Shown piece after piece: positions 24,136 through 31,603 of a DNA stretch of 64,000 bases. Each line of letters starts with the position of its first letter. The stretch's first letter is position 1. The notes beneath the pieces were generated by a model. That model did no database searches and was not told the DNA's origin. It saw only the letters and a program-made list of their open reading frames with translations. The position numbers were made by a program, and so were the translations under genes. The DNA is from Luteolibacter flavescens (GTDB lineage: Bacteria > Verrucomicrobiota > Verrucomicrobiia > Verrucomicrobiales > Akkermansiaceae): assembly GCF_025950085.1 (NCBI RefSeq), contig NZ_JAPDDS010000001.1:310001-374000 (forward strand), written 5' to 3'.

Positions 24136-24438
24136 TCAAGGGAGACCTTTGAGTCTCCGTTCGATCCATTTAGGATTCCGTCGCAGATCCAAGACCGCGC
24201 GGACGCGCGCTGCGTCATCATCGACCTGATAGTAAATCGCGTAGGGAAAACGCTTCGAGAGCAGGCGATGAAAACGACCGAAATGGATCGAATGGATTCC
24301 CGCGAAAAGTTGGAGCGAATCGATGTCCGAAAAGAGGGAATCAAGAAAGTAAGACCCTAGTCCAATCTCCTGACGCTCATAGAACCGGAAGCCCTGCCTG
24401 ATGTCTTCAAGCGCCGACGGCTGAATCTCGATCCTCAC
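24136..24438 (-). CDS. RelE/ParE-superfamily toxin
   Basis: The 100-residue protein begins MRIEIQPSALEDIRQGFRFYERQEIGLGS and contains FGRFHRLLSKRFPYAIYYQVDDDAARVRAVLDLRRNPKWI, the typical ParE/RelE core of a beta-sheet after two helices. It lacks a clear catalytic RelE His/Tyr triad, so target (gyrase or ribosome) is not decided. It overlaps the upstream antitoxin gene by 4 bases (ATGA), the standard toxin-antitoxin layout. Confidence 0.82.
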   Translation of the reverse strand: MRIEIQPSALEDIRQGFRFYERQEIGLGSYFLDSLFSDIDSLQLFAGIHSIHFGRFHRLLSKRFPYAIYYQVDDDAARVRAVLDLRRNPKWIERRLKGLP

Positions 24439-24653
24439 GTCAACTCCTCACGCAATTGCTTCTTGGCGGCATTCCACGCGACGAACCTTTCTTCGCCAGA
24501 TGACGTCAGGCGCTCGCGCTCGGTGAGGACTCCGCCATGCCATTCGGGTGAAGTGATGTCGTCTGTTCCTGCGGAGAGGTTCTCCCACAGGTTTTCCATG
24601 AGGCGGAGCTTGTCCGCCGTGCTCATGACTTCCAGATCGACCGTCGTCACCAT
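24435..24653 (-). CDS. Addiction-module antitoxin-like protein
   Basis: The 72-residue acidic protein (STADKLRLMENLWENL; SPEWHGGVLTERE; NAAKKQLREELT) matches the short 'putative addiction module component' antitoxins that pair with ParE-type toxins. LMENLWENL and EWH are hallmark elements. The ATG at 24653 was chosen because it gives the family length; the frame stays open upstream without similarity. It lies 31 bp after the helicase stop on the same strand. Confidence 0.82.
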   Translation of the reverse strand: MVTTVDLEVMSTADKLRLMENLWENLSAGTDDITSPEWHGGVLTERERLTSSGEERFVAWNAAKKQLREELT

Positions 24654-24684: not shown

Positions 24685-25881
24685 TCAACGCCGCTTTTTC
24701 TTCCCGCCCATCGGCTTCTTGCGGATCGGCTTGGAAGGGGAATCGTCGAGGAGGGCGGTGTAGATGTAGTCGAAGCCGTCCAGCTTCTTGCGCTGGATCT
24801 TCTGGTCGATGAAGACCTCGACGGACTTGGCAAACTCAAGCTCGTCCGCGGTAAGGATGGTGAAGGCGTCACCTTCGGCCTCGGCCCGGCCAGTGCGGCC
24901 GATGCGGTGGACGTAGTCCTCGGCATTCTCCGGGACGCGGTAGTTGATGACGTGCGAGACGCCGGAGATGTCGATGCCACGGGCGGCGACGTCGGTCGCG
25001 ACGAGGACTTCGAATTCACCGCTCTTAAAGCCGGCGAGCGCCTTCATGCGGTCCACCTGGCTGATATCGGAGTGCATCGCGGCGACCTTCTCGTGGCCCT
25101 CGCGCTTGAGCAGCGCGCAGACCTGGTCGGCCTCCTTGCGGGTGCGGGTGAAGATCATCACCGAGTGATAGTCGGTGTGATTCAGCAGGGCGATGAGCAG
25201 GTCGTCGCGCTGGTCCATCGAGACCGGGTAGAAGGCGTGCGTGACGGTGGATGCCACCGCGCGGCGCGCGATTTCCACGCTGACCGGATTGATGAGGCAC
25301 CATTGGGCGAAGGTCTGGATCGCCGGCGGCATGGTCGCCGAGAAGAAGAGCGTCTGACGGCCCTCCCACGGGCAGAGATTCACGATCTTGCGGACCTGCG
25401 GGAGGAATCCCATGTCCAGCATGCGGTCCACTTCATCGAGGATCAGGATCTTCACCTCGTTGAAGCGCATGGTGGCGCGGTAGAAATGGTCGACGAGGCG
25501 TCCCGGGGTCGCGACCACGATGTCGGCACCGCCTTGCAGCGCCTTGAGTTGCTCGCCGAAGCCGACGCCGCCGAAGAGCAGGGCGACCTTCAGACCGGTG
25601 TGCTTGCCGTATTTCTCGAATTGCTCGGCCACCTGGTGGGCGAGTTCGCGGGTCGGCTCCAGCACCAGGATCTGGGGCTTGCCCATCGGCGTGATCTTGC
25701 TCAGCGACGGCAGGGCGAAGGCCGCGGTCTTTCCGGTGCCGGTCTGCGAGGCACCGATCACATCGCGCCCTTCCAGGATCAGCGGGATGGCCTGAGCCTG
25801 GATCGGCGTGGGGTTTTCGTAGCCCGACTCCGTGACGGCTTCGAGAACGGCTGCGGAGAGGCCTAATGTGTCAAATCCCAT
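24685..25881 (-). CDS. rhlE: DEAD-box RNA helicase, RhlE-like
   Basis: The 398-residue helicase core has the Q motif (GFDTLGLSAAVLEAVTESGYENPTPIQAQAI split around residue 20), motif I ASQTGTGKTAAF, PTRELAHQ, TPGRL, DEVDRMLD in place of the canonical DEAD box, SAT, the motif IV region HSVMIFTRTRKEAD, ATDVAARGIDI and HRIGRTGRAEAEG. A short basic tail (KPIRKKPMGGKKKRR) probably adds RNA affinity. It should unwind RNA during ribosome assembly or decay. The Glu-to-Glu, Ala-to-Val change (DEVD) keeps the catalytic acidic pair and occurs in this subfamily. Confidence 0.9.
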   Translation of the reverse strand: MGFDTLGLSAAVLEAVTESGYENPTPIQAQAIPLILEGRDVIGASQTGTGKTAAFALPSLSKITPMGKPQILVLEPTRELAHQVAEQFEKYGKHTGLKVALLFGGVGFGEQLKALQGGADIVVATPGRLVDHFYRATMRFNEVKILILDEVDRMLDMGFLPQVRKIVNLCPWEGRQTLFFSATMPPAIQTFAQWCLINPVSVEIARRAVASTVTHAFYPVSMDQRDDLLIALLNHTDYHSVMIFTRTRKEADQVCALLKREGHEKVAAMHSDISQVDRMKALAGFKSGEFEVLVATDVAARGIDISGVSHVINYRVPENAEDYVHRIGRTGRAEAEGDAFTILTADELEFAKSVEVFIDQKIQRKKLDGFDYIYTALLDDSPSKPIRKKPMGGKKKRR

Positions 25882-25957
25882 GTGTGCGGGGATTGCGTAG
25901 GGATCAAGCCACCCCCGGTCAAGGGACGAGTGCCTTGGTGGAAAGAAGTTGTCTCGG

Positions 25958-26824
25958 CTAGGGCGACGCGGGTGCGGCGGGCGAGTGGATCAACAGGCAC
26001 TCCTCCAGGAGCGGCTGGAGCTCCTCCAGAAGCGGCACTCCTTGGGCGAATTCCTGCTGATAACGGCGCTCGATCCGTTTGAGGGCGAATTCGAGGTCGG
26101 TCTTCGCGAGACCGGTCACTTCACCGCGGATCACGGCGACGAGCAGGCTGTATTGCCCGGCGCTGATGAGCGTGCGTCGTCCTTCTCCCAGCTCGAAGCC
26201 GAACATGTAGGCTCCGGAATCGTCCTGCACGCGCAGGGCCAGCTTCCGGGCGAACGAACCGACTTTCCGCGGGTGGGCGTGACGCACGGGATTCGAGCTC
26301 GCGTAGGAGATGAGCGAGAGCTTGTCCCGGTCCAACAGGTAGACCTCCTCGACGTGAAAGCGGCGGATCTTGTCCGAGACGATCTCGTCGTAGCTGCGAC
26401 TGGTGAAAAGAGCCTGCAGGTGCCACAGGGTGCGGTGGCCGACTCCAGGCTGCTGGAATGGCCCGACCTGATGCTCGGCGAGGGCGCGGCGGAAGGTGGA
26501 GCGCAGCATCGCCTCCAGCGAGGCATCGTCATGAAACGATCCTCCGCCCATGACACCGGCGACGAGGGGTGCGATCGCCAGGCGCAGATCCTCGTCCGTG
26601 TAATCGGACGGTGGACTGGGCATGGGAGGCGTCACCGGGGCGGGTGGCGTTTCCACCGCGGAGAAGCGCGGTTGATTACCCAGCTCCGGCAGGGACATCC
26701 GGCGCGGGGGCTCCGGTGCTGGATTTCCCGGCAGTGGCAGATTTTGGACGGAAATGACGGGTCGCGCCGGGCGGCAGGCCAGCAGGTCGAGCGGGGCGGG
26801 CAGCGGTGGGATCGCGGCAGTCAT
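25958..26824 (-). CDS. Putative sensor-domain protein of unknown function
   Basis: About 288 residues. The first 95 are Pro-rich and disordered-looking. After SDYTDEDLRLAIAPLVAGVMGG there is a helical part (MLRSTFRRALAEHQ), then a compact alpha/beta segment (RRFHVEEVYLLDRDKLSLISYAS ... ARKLALRVQDDSGAYMFGFELGEGR RTLIS... LVAVIRGEVTGLAKTDLEFALKRIERRY). By eye this last part resembles the LLDKxTGLLI-type module fused to OmpA proteins in cyanobacteria, which looks roadblock- or PAS-like; this is recollection and needs testing. It overlaps the coiled-coil gene by ATGA, so the two proteins probably act together. It is divergent from the sigma/kinase operon. Confidence 0.6.
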   Translation of the reverse strand: MTAAIPPLPAPLDLLACRPARPVISVQNLPLPGNPAPEPPRRMSLPELGNQPRFSAVETPPAPVTPPMPSPPSDYTDEDLRLAIAPLVAGVMGGGSFHDDASLEAMLRSTFRRALAEHQVGPFQQPGVGHRTLWHLQALFTSRSYDEIVSDKIRRFHVEEVYLLDRDKLSLISYASSNPVRHAHPRKVGSFARKLALRVQDDSGAYMFGFELGEGRRTLISAGQYSLLVAVIRGEVTGLAKTDLEFALKRIERRYQQEFAQGVPLLEELQPLLEECLLIHSPAAPASP

Positions 26825-27414
26825 GTCGCACCTCCCGGGTGGCCCGCTTGCAGGGCGGCGGCTTCGGCGATTGCCCGTGCGGCATTGGCCAGCTGCTGGA
26901 AGGACTCCTGCATGCGTACGTGCTCGGCACGGCCTCGGTCCGCAGTGTCCACCTTCGTGCTGACCCACGCCTTGGTCTTCTCAAGCTCGCCCTTCAGCTC
27001 TGAGATCAGATGATCCTCGCGCTGCTGGAGATAGTTGCGAAAGCCTTGGTTCCAGTGATCGAGCCAGCGGGTGAAGCGCTGCTCCAACTCCACCTGGGCC
27101 TCCAGGCCAGAGTCGGCACGATTGCGCGCAGCCGCCTGGATCTGGGTGGCGAGACGGTGGGTCTCCTCGACACGACGCGCCTTCTCGGCATCGATCTCGT
27201 CGCGCAGCGCGGCGAGCTTCTCGTCATGGCGCTTTTCGTAGGACGAGAGCCGGATCTCGAACACATCTCCCCCGGCCTCGGTCGGCATGGGGCGCAGGTT
27301 CGCTTCCAGGCGCTCGAGGCGTCGTTCCACGCATTCCATCTGACGACCCACGAGTATCTCGCGGATCCGTTCGACCTGGCGTGACGGATTGGTTTCGGGG
27401 GGATAGGGGGGCAT
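26821..27414 (-). CDS. Coiled-coil protein of unknown function
   Basis: About 197 residues from ATG 27414 (an earlier start at 27492 is possible). After a Pro-rich beginning the protein is almost wholly charged helix: VERRLERLEANLRP, YEKRHDEKLAALRDEIDAEKARRVEETHRLATQIQ, LEQRFTRWLDHWNQGFRNYLQQREDHLISELKGELEKTKAWV, with heptad-like spacing. No enzymatic motif or membrane segment. Its stop overlaps the start of the sensor-domain gene by 4 bases, pointing to a complex of fixed stoichiometry. The 230-bp gap to the divergent sigma gene holds the promoters. Confidence 0.65.
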   Translation of the reverse strand: MPPYPPETNPSRQVERIREILVGRQMECVERRLERLEANLRPMPTEAGGDVFEIRLSSYEKRHDEKLAALRDEIDAEKARRVEETHRLATQIQAAARNRADSGLEAQVELEQRFTRWLDHWNQGFRNYLQQREDHLISELKGELEKTKAWVSTKVDTADRGRAEHVRMQESFQQLANAARAIAEAAALQAGHPGGAT

Positions 27415-27647
27415 TAGGGGTGGGGGAACTCGCTCCGTGGGGGGTGGTCCGGTGGGGTGAACCGGACTGGAGAAAGCTATAAACAGCAGCACCGAACCCT
27501 ATGCCGCAAAAAGGCGCACTGTAAATGCCAAGATTGATCCTTAATCTCTCCGAACTATCGACCGGCGTGAATAAAATTCCCTACGGCCAAGCCAGCCCGC
27601 GAACTCCGTGAAAGACACCCTTGCCCCGGTGTGGTAAGGGGGAGCCG

Positions 27648-28310
27648 ATGTCCGACCAAGAGTACGACAAGGAGCGCGACCAGGTGCTCGCAGCTGCCTA
27701 CGAAAAGACCCGGAAGAGCCTCATCGCAAGGCTGGACAATTGGGAGGACCAGAAGACTTGGGACGAGTTCTACCAGACCTACTGGCGGCTGATCTACGCC
27801 GTGGCCATCAAGGCCGGCCTGCGCCCGGACGAGGCGCACGATTGCGTGCAGGAGACCGTCCTTTCCATCGCCAAGCAGAGCAAGAAGAAGCTCTACGACC
27901 CCGAGCAGGGCTCCTTCAAGACGTGGCTGATGAACATGACGCGCTGGCGGATCAACGACCAGTTCCGCAAGCGCAAGAAGGACACCGCCATGGCAGGCGG
28001 GGAGTGGGAAGACGACCGGAAAACCGCCGTCATCGACCGCTTCGAGGACCCGCGCGGCGACATGCTGGCGCGACTTTGGGACGTTGAATGGAAAAAGAAC
28101 GTCGCCGACGCCGCTTTAGCCCGTGTGAAAGCGCAGGTGTCGCCCAAACAGTACCAGATCTTCGACTGCTACGTCGTCCGCCAGTGGGACGCGAAGAAAG
28201 TCCAGGACCACCTGAACGTCAGCATGGCGCAGGTGTATCTCGCGAAGCACCGCGTGGGTGCCGTCTTGAAAAAGGAACTCGCCCGACTGGAGGAGGATGC
28301 CGACGAATAG
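27648..28310 (+). CDS. ECF-type RNA polymerase sigma factor
   Basis: The 220-residue protein has sigma region 2 (WDEFYQTYWRLIYAVAIKAGLRPDEAHDCVQETVLSIAKQ ... GSFKTWLMNMTRWRINDQFRKRKK, spread over residues 45-130) and region 4 (VSPKQYQIFDCYVVRQWDAKKVQDHLNVSMAQVYLAKHRVGAVLKKEL). An AAGGGGGA ribosome site precedes ATG 27648 by 4 bases, one of few clear Shine-Dalgarno sites here, and it fixes the start. No anti-sigma gene is adjacent; the overlapping kinase gene downstream suggests control by phosphorylation, as proposed for Planctomycetes/Verrucomicrobia ECF-kinase pairs. Confidence 0.88.
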   Translation: MSDQEYDKERDQVLAAAYEKTRKSLIARLDNWEDQKTWDEFYQTYWRLIYAVAIKAGLRPDEAHDCVQETVLSIAKQSKKKLYDPEQGSFKTWLMNMTRWRINDQFRKRKKDTAMAGGEWEDDRKTAVIDRFEDPRGDMLARLWDVEWKKNVADAALARVKAQVSPKQYQIFDCYVVRQWDAKKVQDHLNVSMAQVYLAKHRVGAVLKKELARLEEDADE

Positions 28311-30936
28311 GCCGCGACCCGATCCGGTCATCCCGGACCATGAAGTCCTGCGGAAAGTCGGTGGCGGGGCGTATGGGGAAGTCTGGCTCGCCCGCGGCGT
28401 GACCGGTGCCCTGCGCGCTGTCAAGGTGGTGTGGCGCGAGGATTTCGAGGACGAGCGCAGCTTCGAGCGCGAGTTCGAGGGCATCCTGAAATTCGAGCCC
28501 ATCTCCCGGGATCACCCGGGGCTGGTGAATATCCTCCACGTCGGCCGCAGCGTCGATGGCGTCTCCTTCTACTACTACGTGATGGAACTGGGGGATGACG
28601 TGCTCACCGGGCGCGAGATCAATCCCATCGAATACGAGGCCCGCACGCTGCGCAGCGATGTGAAGCGCGTGCCCGGCAAGCGCCTCGACACGGAATTCTG
28701 CATCGATGTGGGCGTCCGCCTGGCGGAGGCCCTGCGGCACCTGCATGACAATGGCTTGGCGCACCGCGACGTGAAGCCGGCGAACGTCATTTTCGTCGGC
28801 GGCAAGGCAAAGCTGGCGGACATCGGGCTCGTCGCCGCGCGCGGCCAGCGGACCTTCGTGGGCACCGAGGGCTTCGTCCCGCCGGAGGGTCCGGGATCGG
28901 CGCAGGCGGACGTCTATAGCCTCGGTAAGGTGCTCTACGAGATCGCCAGCGGCAAAGACCGCATGGACTTCCCGGAACTGCCGGACGACATGCCGCCAAA
29001 GCTGGAGCGGAAGCGTTGGCTCGCGCTGAACCAGATCGTCTGTGACGTCTGCGAGCCCCAGCTTTCAAAGCGAAAGGTTTCATCCGCGGGAGAGCTGGCC
29101 GATGTGCTGCGCCGGTTGCAGGAAGGGAAGCGCCGGAAGCGGCGTCGCCCGGTGGGTGCATTTTTCGCCACGGTTTTCACGGCTGCAGCCCTTGTCTTCG
29201 GCACGTGGGAGGCCTTCAAGGGCAGCCCGTGGATGAGCCTGCCGAACCAATTCGCGAATCTCCTGCCGATCAACGGATCAGGCGACGAGACCCCGGTGGA
29301 AAAGAAGCCGATCCCGGCGCTCATCAAGATCAACAGCCGTCCCGAGGGCGCCGTGGTGGTTGCCTCCGATGGCGAGGTACTGGGCACGACGCCGACCGAC
29401 CTGCTCAATTCCTACGTCGGGGAGCAGGTCTCTTTCCGCCTGGACAAGGACGGCTACGGTTCCGTTCCGCTGGATGCGGTGGTGCCCGCCTCGGCTGCGG
29501 AGGAGCCGCTGTTGTTGGAAGCCGAGCTGAAGATCTTCTCCCCGCCGCAGCCGAACGAAAACTGGGTCGATCACCTCGGGCAACGCTACGGCCCGGTGGG
29601 AGAGGGGCACCAGAGCCGCCGGCCGGTGGGGAAGGACGAATGGGATCGCTATCTTGCTGAAAAGGAACGACCCGGCGATGTCGCCGAGTTTGTCGAAGTC
29701 GAGGAAGACGGTATCAAGCGCAAGATCGTCGTGACCAGCGAGGGTGAGGCGCAGGCATTCTGCTGGTGGCTGGCGGAAAGCGGCATCCGGGACGGTTTCC
29801 TCACCGTGAATCATCGCGCGCGTCAGTTGATGGACCTCACCTTTGCCAATACCGGCATGAGTGAGCGTGCCCGGAAGGAGAATTTCCGCCCCTTCCGCTG
29901 CCGGGTGGAGCCCATTCCCTACGCCTGGATCACCGTGACGACCGAGCCCTCCGGCGCGGAGGTCTTCCTGAAAACGGCGGAGAATTCCTACAACTACGTC
30001 ATCGGCACGACCCGCGGGCCGCTCACGACGGATCCGCTGCGTCCCGGCGATCACGAGTTGCTGATCCTGCTGGAGGGCTACAAGCCGCTGTCCAAGAAGG
30101 TGACCCTCAAGGAAAACGAGCGGCTGGATCTTCACCTGAAGTTGGAACTGAACAACAGCGTGGTCATGGAGAAGCCTTGGGAAAACGGGCTCGGGATGAA
30201 ATTCGTCCCCATGGGCACCGACCTGATGGCGTCCATCTGGGAGACCCGGGTGAAGGACTACGATGCTTTTGTCCGCGCGAAAAACCTGTCTGCCCCGGCC
30301 ACGGATTTCCAGCAGGGGCCGGATCATCCCGTGGTCTTCGTTTCCCGCAAGGATGCCGAGGACTTCTGCGTCTGGCTGACGGAGGTGGAGCGGAAGCAGG
30401 AGCGACTGACCCAGGTGCACGAGTATCGCCTGCCCACCGACTACGAGTGGAGCATGATGGCGGAGCTGAAGGAGCAGCCCAACGTCTCTCCAGCCCGGCG
30501 CGACACGCAGCGGGCAAAGGTCTTCATGTGGGGTGCCGCGTGGCCGCCCGGGGCAGACGGAATGAAGGTCGCGAACCTGGCCGATGGCAGCGCCACCATC
30601 CTCGTCAGGAGCGAGCGGACCATCTCGGGATACATCGATGGCTTCGAGCGGACGGCGCCGGTCGGCTCTTTCCCTCCGAATTCTCTGGGGATCTACGACC
30701 TGTGCGGGAATGTCCACGAGTGGGTCTCGGACAATTACAGTCCGTCATCCTCCTCCGGCGTCCTGCGCGGCGGCGGGTGGAATACCTATCAGCCGCAGAA
30801 TCTCTACATCGGCGCGCGGAATACCCAGCCGCCGGACTTTCGCGACAGCATCTACGGCTTCCGCGTCGTGCTTGCCAAAGTCCCGCCGATCCCGGAAACC
30901 ACGCCTGCCGAAGAAGGCATCGAAACCGATGGTTGA
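28297..30936 (+). CDS. Membrane Ser/Thr protein kinase with duplicated PEGA-SUMF extracytoplasmic region
   Basis: The 879-residue protein starts inside the sigma gene (14-base overlap). Its kinase domain (about 15-275) has VGGGAYGEV, Lys43 in RAVKVV, HRDVKPAN (157-164), DIG (176-178) in place of DFG, and PPE for APE. A basic stretch and membrane segment (288-304) follow. Outside: PEGA (343-412), a degenerate SUMF-like stretch (about 415-535), a second PEGA (541-615) and a fuller SUMF/FGE-type domain (623-860; GIYDLCGNVHEWVSD, VLRGGGWN, GFRVV). The Cys pair needed for formylglycine oxidation is absent, so the SUMF fold is probably a ligand-binding sensor. Confidence 0.9.
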   Translation: MPTNRPRPDPVIPDHEVLRKVGGGAYGEVWLARGVTGALRAVKVVWREDFEDERSFEREFEGILKFEPISRDHPGLVNILHVGRSVDGVSFYYYVMELGDDVLTGREINPIEYEARTLRSDVKRVPGKRLDTEFCIDVGVRLAEALRHLHDNGLAHRDVKPANVIFVGGKAKLADIGLVAARGQRTFVGTEGFVPPEGPGSAQADVYSLGKVLYEIASGKDRMDFPELPDDMPPKLERKRWLALNQIVCDVCEPQLSKRKVSSAGELADVLRRLQEGKRRKRRRPVGAFFATVFTAAALVFGTWEAFKGSPWMSLPNQFANLLPINGSGDETPVEKKPIPALIKINSRPEGAVVVASDGEVLGTTPTDLLNSYVGEQVSFRLDKDGYGSVPLDAVVPASAAEEPLLLEAELKIFSPPQPNENWVDHLGQRYGPVGEGHQSRRPVGKDEWDRYLAEKERPGDVAEFVEVEEDGIKRKIVVTSEGEAQAFCWWLAESGIRDGFLTVNHRARQLMDLTFANTGMSERARKENFRPFRCRVEPIPYAWITVTTEPSGAEVFLKTAENSYNYVIGTTRGPLTTDPLRPGDHELLILLEGYKPLSKKVTLKENERLDLHLKLELNNSVVMEKPWENGLGMKFVPMGTDLMASIWETRVKDYDAFVRAKNLSAPATDFQQGPDHPVVFVSRKDAEDFCVWLTEVERKQERLTQVHEYRLPTDYEWSMMAELKEQPNVSPARRDTQRAKVFMWGAAWPPGADGMKVANLADGSATILVRSERTISGYIDGFERTAPVGSFPPNSLGIYDLCGNVHEWVSDNYSPSSSSGVLRGGGWNTYQPQNLYIGARNTQPPDFRDSIYGFRVVLAKVPPIPETTPAEEGIETDG

Positions 30937-31336
30937 AATCAAGATCGACTACCAGGGAGACCTGCACTGCTCCGCCCTCCACGTGCCCTCCGGCACCACG
31001 CTCGAGACCGACGCGCCGGTGGACAACAACGGCCGCGGCGAGTCCTTCTCTCCCACCGATCTCGTCGCCACCGGCCTCGGCGTCTGCATGGCCACGGTCA
31101 TGGGCATCGTGGCAAAGCGGAAGGAGATCCCGCTGGAAGGTCTGAAGGTTGCCGTGCGCAAGCACATGTCCACCGACACGCCGCGCCGTATTTCCAAGCT
31201 GGAGGTCGATCTCGACATGCCGCTGCCGGCGGATCACCCCGAGCGGAAGATGCTGGAGAGCGCTGGTAACGGCTGTCCCGTCCACCACAGCCTGCACCCG
31301 GACATCGAGGTGGTGCTGAACTACCGCTGGCAGTGA
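30929..31336 (+). CDS. OsmC-family protein (probable thiol peroxidase)
   Basis: The 135-residue protein has both reactive cysteines of the OsmC/Ohr family: Cys53 in ATGLGVCMATVMG and Cys116 in NGCPVHHSL, with the SPTDLVATGL signature ahead of the first. Members reduce organic hydroperoxides. The ATG at 30929 overlaps the end of the kinase gene by 8 bases in another frame, so it is likely the third gene of the sigma-kinase transcript. That placement may hint at an oxidative or envelope-stress output. Confidence 0.88.
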   Translation: MVEIKIDYQGDLHCSALHVPSGTTLETDAPVDNNGRGESFSPTDLVATGLGVCMATVMGIVAKRKEIPLEGLKVAVRKHMSTDTPRRISKLEVDLDMPLPADHPERKMLESAGNGCPVHHSLHPDIEVVLNYRWQ

Positions 31337-31509
31337 TTTGACCGGGCATCCCGGCTAACAGTTTTCGGAGCGGGGCTGGGGATTCTCCTGCTCCGTTTTG
31401 CTTTTCTGGAGGTTTCACAAAACGTCGCCGGACGATTTTGGCGGCTATTTTGACCGCAATCGGTCGGTGACGCGTTGGATTTGAGTCGATGCGTCCCAAA
31501 AAACTCCTG

Positions 31510-31533
31510 ACTTTGTGAAATTTTTCACAAAGT
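31510..31533. promoter_or_regulatory. Perfect 24-bp palindrome upstream of nuoG
   Basis: ACTTTGTGAAA (31510-31520) and its exact complement TTTCACAAAGT (31523-31533) flank TT, 70 bp before the nuoG ATG at 31604. The half-site TTTCACAAA recurs at 31413-31421. A weak promoter candidate, TTGCCG (31538-31543) and CATAGT (31560-31565) with 16-base spacing, follows directly. The arrangement fits an operator at or upstream of -35 for a dimeric regulator of complex I. The rest of 31337-31603 has no supported gene. Confidence 0.5.
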
Positions 31534-31603
31534 GCGCTTGCCGCTCGCGAGGCGCTTTTTCATAGTCCGCGTCGCCCGGGGTTTCCCCATGCACTCCCTG
31601 CCC

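Follow-up and report, generated by a model that had tools for sequence, protein, structure and literature searches.

Organization of the locus

The genes considered here lie in a 64,000-nucleotide stretch of the Luteolibacter flavescens genome (5.9 Mb), referred to below as the window, and all window positions count from its first nucleotide. Two divergent gene groups face each other across a short intergenic region, with a helicase gene as the nearest flank:

24685-25881, minus strand: DEAD-box helicase gene, a conserved flank (identity from the ORF translation)
25958-26824, minus strand: gene B, an ORF of 288 aa
26821-27414, minus strand: gene A, an ORF of 197 aa counted from the ATG at 27414
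27415-27647: divergent intergenic region between A and SIG, with conserved blocks before SIG and before A
27648-28310, plus strand: SIG, an ECF-type sigma factor of 220 aa (Pfam sigma-70 region 2)
28297-30936, plus strand: KIN, a membrane Ser/Thr kinase of 879 aa (Pfam Pkinase, two PEGA and FGE-sulfatase/SUMF)
30929-31336, plus strand: OsmC-family protein of 135 aa (Pfam OsmC)

A and B overlap by the 4 nt ATGA (26821-26824), SIG and KIN by 14 nt, and KIN and the OsmC gene by 8 nt. All five genes are present as ORFs and arranged, overlaps included, as an earlier note made from the sequence alone had described them. An alternative GTG start at 27492 would add 26 aa to A. Are A and B genuine genes? 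Between the window and locus L016, dN/dS is 0.14 for B, 0.13 for A, 0.03 for SIG, 0.11 for KIN and 0.05 for OsmC; for A and B together it spans 0.13-0.16 when the window is compared with L016 or L017 and is 0.09 between L016 and L017. Because these ratios are low, A and B behave as coding genes, and they are under purifying selection. An Rfam scan of 25800-31600 gave no match.

Most of the ten genus members compared have a promoter-like block, GTGAAAGACA-N12-TATGGTAAGGGG, just before SIG (27600-27647, plus strand); the window carries TGTGGTAAGGGG (TGTGGT). Searched in its exact form, the pattern has a single copy in the window genome, the one before SIG. By eye, the intergenic alignment holds no ECF promoter motif common to SIG and A and no second copy of the block before A. 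A sigma-70 scan of 25850-27800 returned no site, and the same interval has two terminator-like sites versus 1.2 expected. Also by eye, most of the ten genus members show, in the leader of A (27415-27530, minus strand), a small inverted repeat of the TCCGG..CCGGA type together with a GCTGTTTATTGCTTTCTCC-type block.

Conservation among relatives

Homologs were sought in 57 whole genomes, that of the window (G000) and its relatives, at cut-offs of E<=1e-3 for A and B, E<=1e-20 for SIG, E<=1e-60 for KIN and E<=1e-10 for OsmC. SIG and KIN are each matched in 53 of the 57 genomes and OsmC in 43. B is matched in 23 genomes, 22 of them in the window's family plus G047, and A also in 23, the same 22 plus G049. 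The SIG and KIN genes are adjacent in 41 of 53 genomes (28/31 within the family and 13/22 outside), which bears out the suggestion that the kinase is the natural candidate regulator of the sigma factor. OsmC adjoins KIN in 28 of these 41 genomes, 25 of which belong to the family.

Of the 22 family genomes with an A and a B gene, 21 have the pair divergently beside SIG. The window shares its divergent A-B-SIG-KIN order with 19 further genomes (L016-L034), and in G011 (L065) A-B is beside SIG on a contig that ends inside SIG. The exception is G027, in which A-B and SIG-KIN-OsmC are on different contigs. All five genes are together in 19/22 family genomes, the set being incomplete in G001 (no OsmC match at the cut-off), G011 (cut) and G027 (split). 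This synteny of A-B-SIG-KIN exceeds chance. A second collection, which overlaps the first, was obtained by a scan with the B alignment and comprises 41 loci, and SIG adjoins B in 36 of them (not in L087, L092, L093, L094 and L099). Conservation of the arrangement in related genomes, conjectured in the earlier note, is thus found in both collections. The titles of 40 of the records name Verrucomicrobia or groups within it, including Luteolibacter, Haloferula, Roseibacillus and numerous MAGs under the label Akkermansiaceae or Akkermansia; L098 is titled 'uncultured bacterium'.

A fixed module of five parts, as the earlier note envisaged, does not emerge from these data. SIG-KIN-OsmC occurs without A-B in L037, L038, L039, L041, L044, L045 and L047, as well as in L036, which is the G027 case; A-B lies away from SIG in 5/41 loci; and OsmC is missing from the side of KIN in the remainder of the 41 genomes with adjacent SIG and KIN. 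Many members of the family have no A-B next to SIG. The helicase gene adjoins SIG in L038, L039 and L040, three relatives without A-B, and L043, which starts inside SIG, is uninformative on A-B. B may persist without A, as in L091 (6766-7834), where B is next to SIG and no A was found between them. In G027 (L035/L099), A-B is flanked on one side by an alpha-amylase-domain gene and on the other by an apparent tuf-ribosomal protein gene cluster.

Presence of A-B was mapped on a tree of SIG plus KIN made by a 'quick' method from 36 rows, 22 of which have A-B at the site; the rows L047 and L054 are long, L046 and L047 have an odd composition, and L036 (G027, with A-B on another contig) is labelled as lacking A-B at the site. 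The label changes three times over the 36 loci versus a shuffled mean of 11.2. A-B presence is clustered on this tree, and relatedness alone can cause such clustering. Because of two scattered positives (L033 and L034), an old presence with losses and repeated gain are both possible histories, and both fit the tree.

The sigma factor and the kinase

In agreement with the earlier note, there is no anti-sigma family among the Pfam matches of SIG's neighbours. KIN looks like an active kinase, judging by its retained catalytic residues: Lys43, the HRD at 156-158, Asn163 and Asp175 are conserved in 36/36 rows. It has one hydrophobic stretch, near residues 286-306, between the N-terminal kinase and the PEGA/SUMF part.

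ECF factors encoded beside Hanks-type kinases without an anti-sigma are a known kind (PMC8999054, PMC13147305). As these papers describe, the kinase supplies the missing charge of region 2.2 in ECF43, and linker sites also matter in EcfK (PMC8999054, PMC13147305). The window locus resembles the ECF43 pairs EcfP/PknT and EcfK/PknS in that the ECF gene adjoins that of a membrane Hanks-type kinase and no anti-sigma is seen. It further resembles EcfK, with its linker phosphosites, in the conserved Thr residues of the sigma2-sigma4 linker of SIG: T113 is present in 58/61 sequences, and position 126 is Thr in 58/61 and otherwise Glu, Ser or Asp. By analogy, T113 and T126 are candidate phosphosites of SIG. 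SIG differs in region 2.2, which keeps an acidic ExxDxxQE core (E62, D65, Q68 and E69 are invariant in 61/61 distinct sequences), whereas ECF43 has QTTA/STTA at the ExxD position (PMC8999054, PMC13147305). Because SIG retains these acidic residues, the ECF43 mechanism as such does not fit it. Relative to ECF43 as characterized in those sources, KIN also differs in carrying PEGA and SUMF domains, and the window locus has the extra A-B pair.

Genes A and B

A matches no Pfam or NCBIfam family above cut-off. Its AlphaFold2 model, made of A alone, is all-helical with three long helices, and A is predicted to be a coiled-coil-type protein. Two weak PADLOC matches to ZorA in the helical region (E 0.0017 and 0.0034) were taken as coiled-coil noise. 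Near its N-terminus A carries a conserved motif, VERIREILVGRQ...VE.RL, of which V14, E15, R18, E19 and G23 are invariant in 31/31 aligned rows. This alignment consists of the window and chosen rows from 30/41 loci; it omits L084, L089, L091, L094, L097, L098 and L100-L104, in most of which A is diverged or unseen. A scan for the motif found it in 32/41 loci and did not see it in 9/41. In G026, A and B are fused into one ORF of 626 aa (L032 8935-10815; also L089, the same contig), and this fusion is a sign that A and B work together.

What might B be? The protein matches no Pfam family at E<=1, Robl_LC7 included, no NCBIfam family above cut-off, nothing in PADLOC, and nothing better than E 0.2 among PDB sequences. 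An AlphaFold2 run with 41 sequences, from an alignment that omits L105 of the 41 loci, gave a model with a mean pLDDT of 78 for the whole protein and of 87-97 per ten residues over 161-280. In this model a proline-rich N-terminus of low confidence is followed by helices and by a longin/roadblock-like domain at about residues 145-283, with elements in the order helix, two strands, helix, three strands, helices. The highest-ranking Foldseek matches in the PDB include Ragulator roadblock subunits, MglB and Mon1-Ccz1, with modest E-values, the best being 6.7e-4 and the sole one below 1e-3. VIA-align, as a second look at the Foldseek matches, ranked longin domains first (VAMP7 4afi_A, Z 13.3, rmsd 2.6 over 116 residues), together with Sec22b, TRAPP, adaptins, Mon1-Ccz1 and a Lokiarchaeal longin. 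The domain of B is predicted to have a longin/roadblock-like fold, which is common among small-GTPase regulators, and a shared fold is no proof of function. B has no membrane helix by hydropathy (best 19-residue value 1.19) and no Pfam OmpA match, and the protein ends after the domain. Structure prediction of the two proteins singly, as the earlier note had proposed, thus yielded models for both, and its generic sensor domain in B gives way to a predicted longin/roadblock-like domain related to proteins of Rup-like clusters.

Relationship to Rup-type GTPase clusters

A Group 1 Rup cluster comprises genes for a GTPase, a coiled-coil protein, a protein with an unclassified domain and an output (PMC4316618). 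According to the same account, a membrane helix and an OmpA domain often come after the unclassified domain, and the GTPases are missing the catalytic Gln in G3 (PMC4316618). Wuichet and Sogaard-Andersen 2014 did not settle which partner activates the Group 1 GTPase, and drew attention to a Gln that is invariant among the output proteins (PMC4316618).

B aligns with three proteins of Rup-like clusters. Its match in G047 (L052; E 1.9e-8) is a protein of 647 aa in which a similar domain is combined with a hydrophobic stretch around residue 304 and an extended C-terminal part; the gene overlaps by ATGA that of a 170-aa Ras-family GTPase (Ras E 2.7e-28), and a histidine kinase gene follows. For A, the corresponding match is to the A-type gene in the G049 cluster (E 9.2e-7). 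In G049 (L062) and G052 (L063) the order is an A-like gene, a gene for a long B-like protein, a Ras-family GTPase gene (Ras E 3.6e-31 and 2.6e-30, respectively) and a fourth gene, which encodes a histidine kinase/receiver protein in L063 and has no Pfam family in L062. In a search of the phylum (an even sample of 387 genomes, with scoring of no more than 6 first-look candidates in each), B-type domains were detected in 17 genomes, 13 of the window's family and 4 outside it. The four outside ORFs are of 634-754 aa; a GTPase gene adjoins the B-type gene in L124 and L125, and none was seen at the locus in L126 and L127. Among the five outside-family loci to which the B domain led (L052, L124-L127), a Ras-like GTPase is therefore adjacent in three; the search with the GTPase or A led to L062 and L063, both of which also contain a B-type gene and a GTPase. 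An A-like gene is present in 3/7 of the outside-family clusters (L062, L063 and L124). In the four GTPases whose G3 is readable, the position of the catalytic Gln is taken by R, E, D and D, in line with that account. The five long B-type proteins scanned gave no Pfam OmpA match, which is a departure from it.

The outside-family clusters resemble Group 1 Rup small-GTPase operons. Judging by gene order and partners, we infer that the B domain is the unclassified domain of PMC4316618. A-B resembles a Group 1 Rup cluster in that it consists of adjacent genes for a coiled-coil and a domain protein, homologous to those of the Rup-like clusters found here. The window locus differs in having no Rup GTPase gene among its ORFs; B is without the transmembrane/C-terminal region, which the source describes as 'often' present in Rup; and there is no histidine kinase or c-di-GMP output, A-B being instead divergent from an ECF sigma/Ser-Thr kinase pair. 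MglA/MglB and the actinobacterial conservons, as presented in PMC4316618, are similar in that a roadblock/longin-like protein belongs to a bacterial signalling locus; they differ in that the window locus has no MglA-type GTPase and B is unmatched by Pfam, including Robl_LC7.

Does the window genome encode such a GTPase elsewhere? The G047 GTPase used as a query found nothing in it at E<=1e-3. Its two Pfam Ras matches are in frames of 502 and 617 aa, which were taken, by length only, as Der/LepA-type proteins. Strong Ras matches (E <1e-25) occur in only 3/57 genomes (G047, G049 and G052), and weak matches to the G047 GTPase are found in G007, G009 and G011 in frames of 206-207 aa (E 7e-4 to 5e-5).

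A possible pathway and its alternatives

The homology of A-B to Rup-like clusters, the predicted fold, the failure to find a Rup-type GTPase, the divergent synteny and the fusion in one genome are results of computation, and they suggest, tentatively and at somewhat short of even confidence, that A-B is a GTPase-less Rup-type adaptor pair attached to the kinase/ECF-sigma pathway, the physical link being presumed. KIN would sense something outside the membrane through its PEGA/SUMF domains and, when active, would phosphorylate SIG. Because SIG keeps the charge of region 2.2, this phosphorylation is more likely to occur in the sigma2-sigma4 linker (T113/T126) than to fill a missing charge in region 2.2. 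A-B would be a reduced relative of a Rup-type system of Group 1, in which the coiled-coil gene and the longin/roadblock-like protein persist and the GTPase, the histidine-kinase-type output and the membrane helix with the C-terminal part are absent. In the most likely mechanism, A and B would form a cytoplasmic complex acting on the kinase/sigma pathway as a scaffold or a brake, with SIG-KIN in the position of the Rup output module. A more specific version, in which a GTPase-independent longin/coiled-coil adaptor gates the route from transmembrane kinase to ECF sigma and the output has been swapped from histidine kinase to sigma factor, is conceivable and rather doubtful.

Apart from synteny, such an action has slender support. 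Distance correlations, corrected for three flanking genes, were calculated for the 15 genomes that have A-B and the helicase flank; the pairs are non-independent and no significance is claimed. Those of A are 0.53 with SIG, 0.53 with B, 0.48 with the kinase domain of KIN and 0.01 with its outer domain, and those of B are weak (0.24 with SIG and 0.35 with KIN). Mean distances in the 15 genomes are 0.087 for SIG and 0.46-0.47 for A, B and outer KIN.

Could A-B and SIG-KIN be conserved neighbours without joint function, merely sharing a stable helicase-RuvC-LipB stretch that rearranges slowly and a divergent intergenic region? There is a substantial, if less than even, chance of this. The helicase/RuvC/LipB flank is likewise conserved among relatives, some loci have SIG-KIN-OsmC and no A-B while others have the reverse, and no shared promoter motif was seen. 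Speaking against it, A-B stays beside SIG with no helicase match in L032, L075 (the genome of L027), L085 and L086, and its presence on the SIG+KIN tree changes far less often than when shuffled, a clustering that relatedness alone may produce. Another reading keeps the ancestral partner, so that A-B still serves a small GTPase encoded elsewhere in the genome or too diverged to be detected. The predicted fold of B, of a type used by GTPase regulators, the GTPase genes beside B-type genes outside the family (three of the five loci reached via B, plus L062 and L063) and the weak matches in G007, G009 and G011 would all suit it. It is made unlikely by the empty search of the window genome with the G047 GTPase, the length of its two Ras-matching frames and the confinement of strong Ras matches to three of 57 genomes.

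The earlier note favoured a five-part envelope or oxidative stress module, with OsmC as a peroxide-reducing effector under SIG control. OsmC does overlap KIN in the window and adjoins it in 28/57 genomes. The window protein has cysteines at what we take to be positions like those of OsmC proteins. Against these points, OsmC is absent or elsewhere in other SIG-KIN genomes; G001 has A-B-SIG-KIN and no OsmC match at E<=1e-10; the closest solved relative, 2pn2, is an uncharacterised protein; and no sign of an oxidative regulon was found in a search limited to one promoter pattern. The oxidative role derives solely from the presence of OsmC, which is a frequent neighbour rather than a demonstrated signalling part, and we consider such a module quite improbable. 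The observation made in the earlier note is confirmed, and its interpretation is partly supported.

Why would an adaptor pair of the Rup type, attached to a kinase/ECF-sigma pathway, be of wider interest? The unclassified domain of Rup-associated proteins gains a predicted fold, longin/roadblock-like. A lineage comes into view that has a Rup-type pair with no GTPase beside it or found in the window genome, yet conserved next to a kinase/ECF pair. The GTPase-free function of such regulators, and their feeding of a sigma factor, become testable questions. If true, this would be a bacterial case in which a fold of small-GTPase regulators is re-used in the absence of the GTPase and the output has moved to a sigma factor; the arrangement suggests the rewiring of a small signalling part to another output. 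We found no description of A-B with a kinase/ECF pair in the open-access literature searched, which is no proof of absence.

Flanking genes

Directly after OsmC, the window has a NuoG-like gene from 31532 (plus strand). A NuoG match lies about 5 kb away in L016, and none was seen in the stretches covered of other relatives' loci; because its position differs or a match was not seen, the NuoG-side flank is less stable. At 24136-24653 (minus strand), between RuvC and the helicase gene, lies a ParE/RelE-like toxin gene whose ParE_toxin match (E 0.0014) does not reach the cut-off, and upstream of it is an antitoxin of the Unstab_antitox family (E 5e-11). By tblastn the toxin was not seen in L017 and L022-L024 and is present in L016, L018, L019 and L020, so that this toxin-antitoxin pair looks like a variable insertion.
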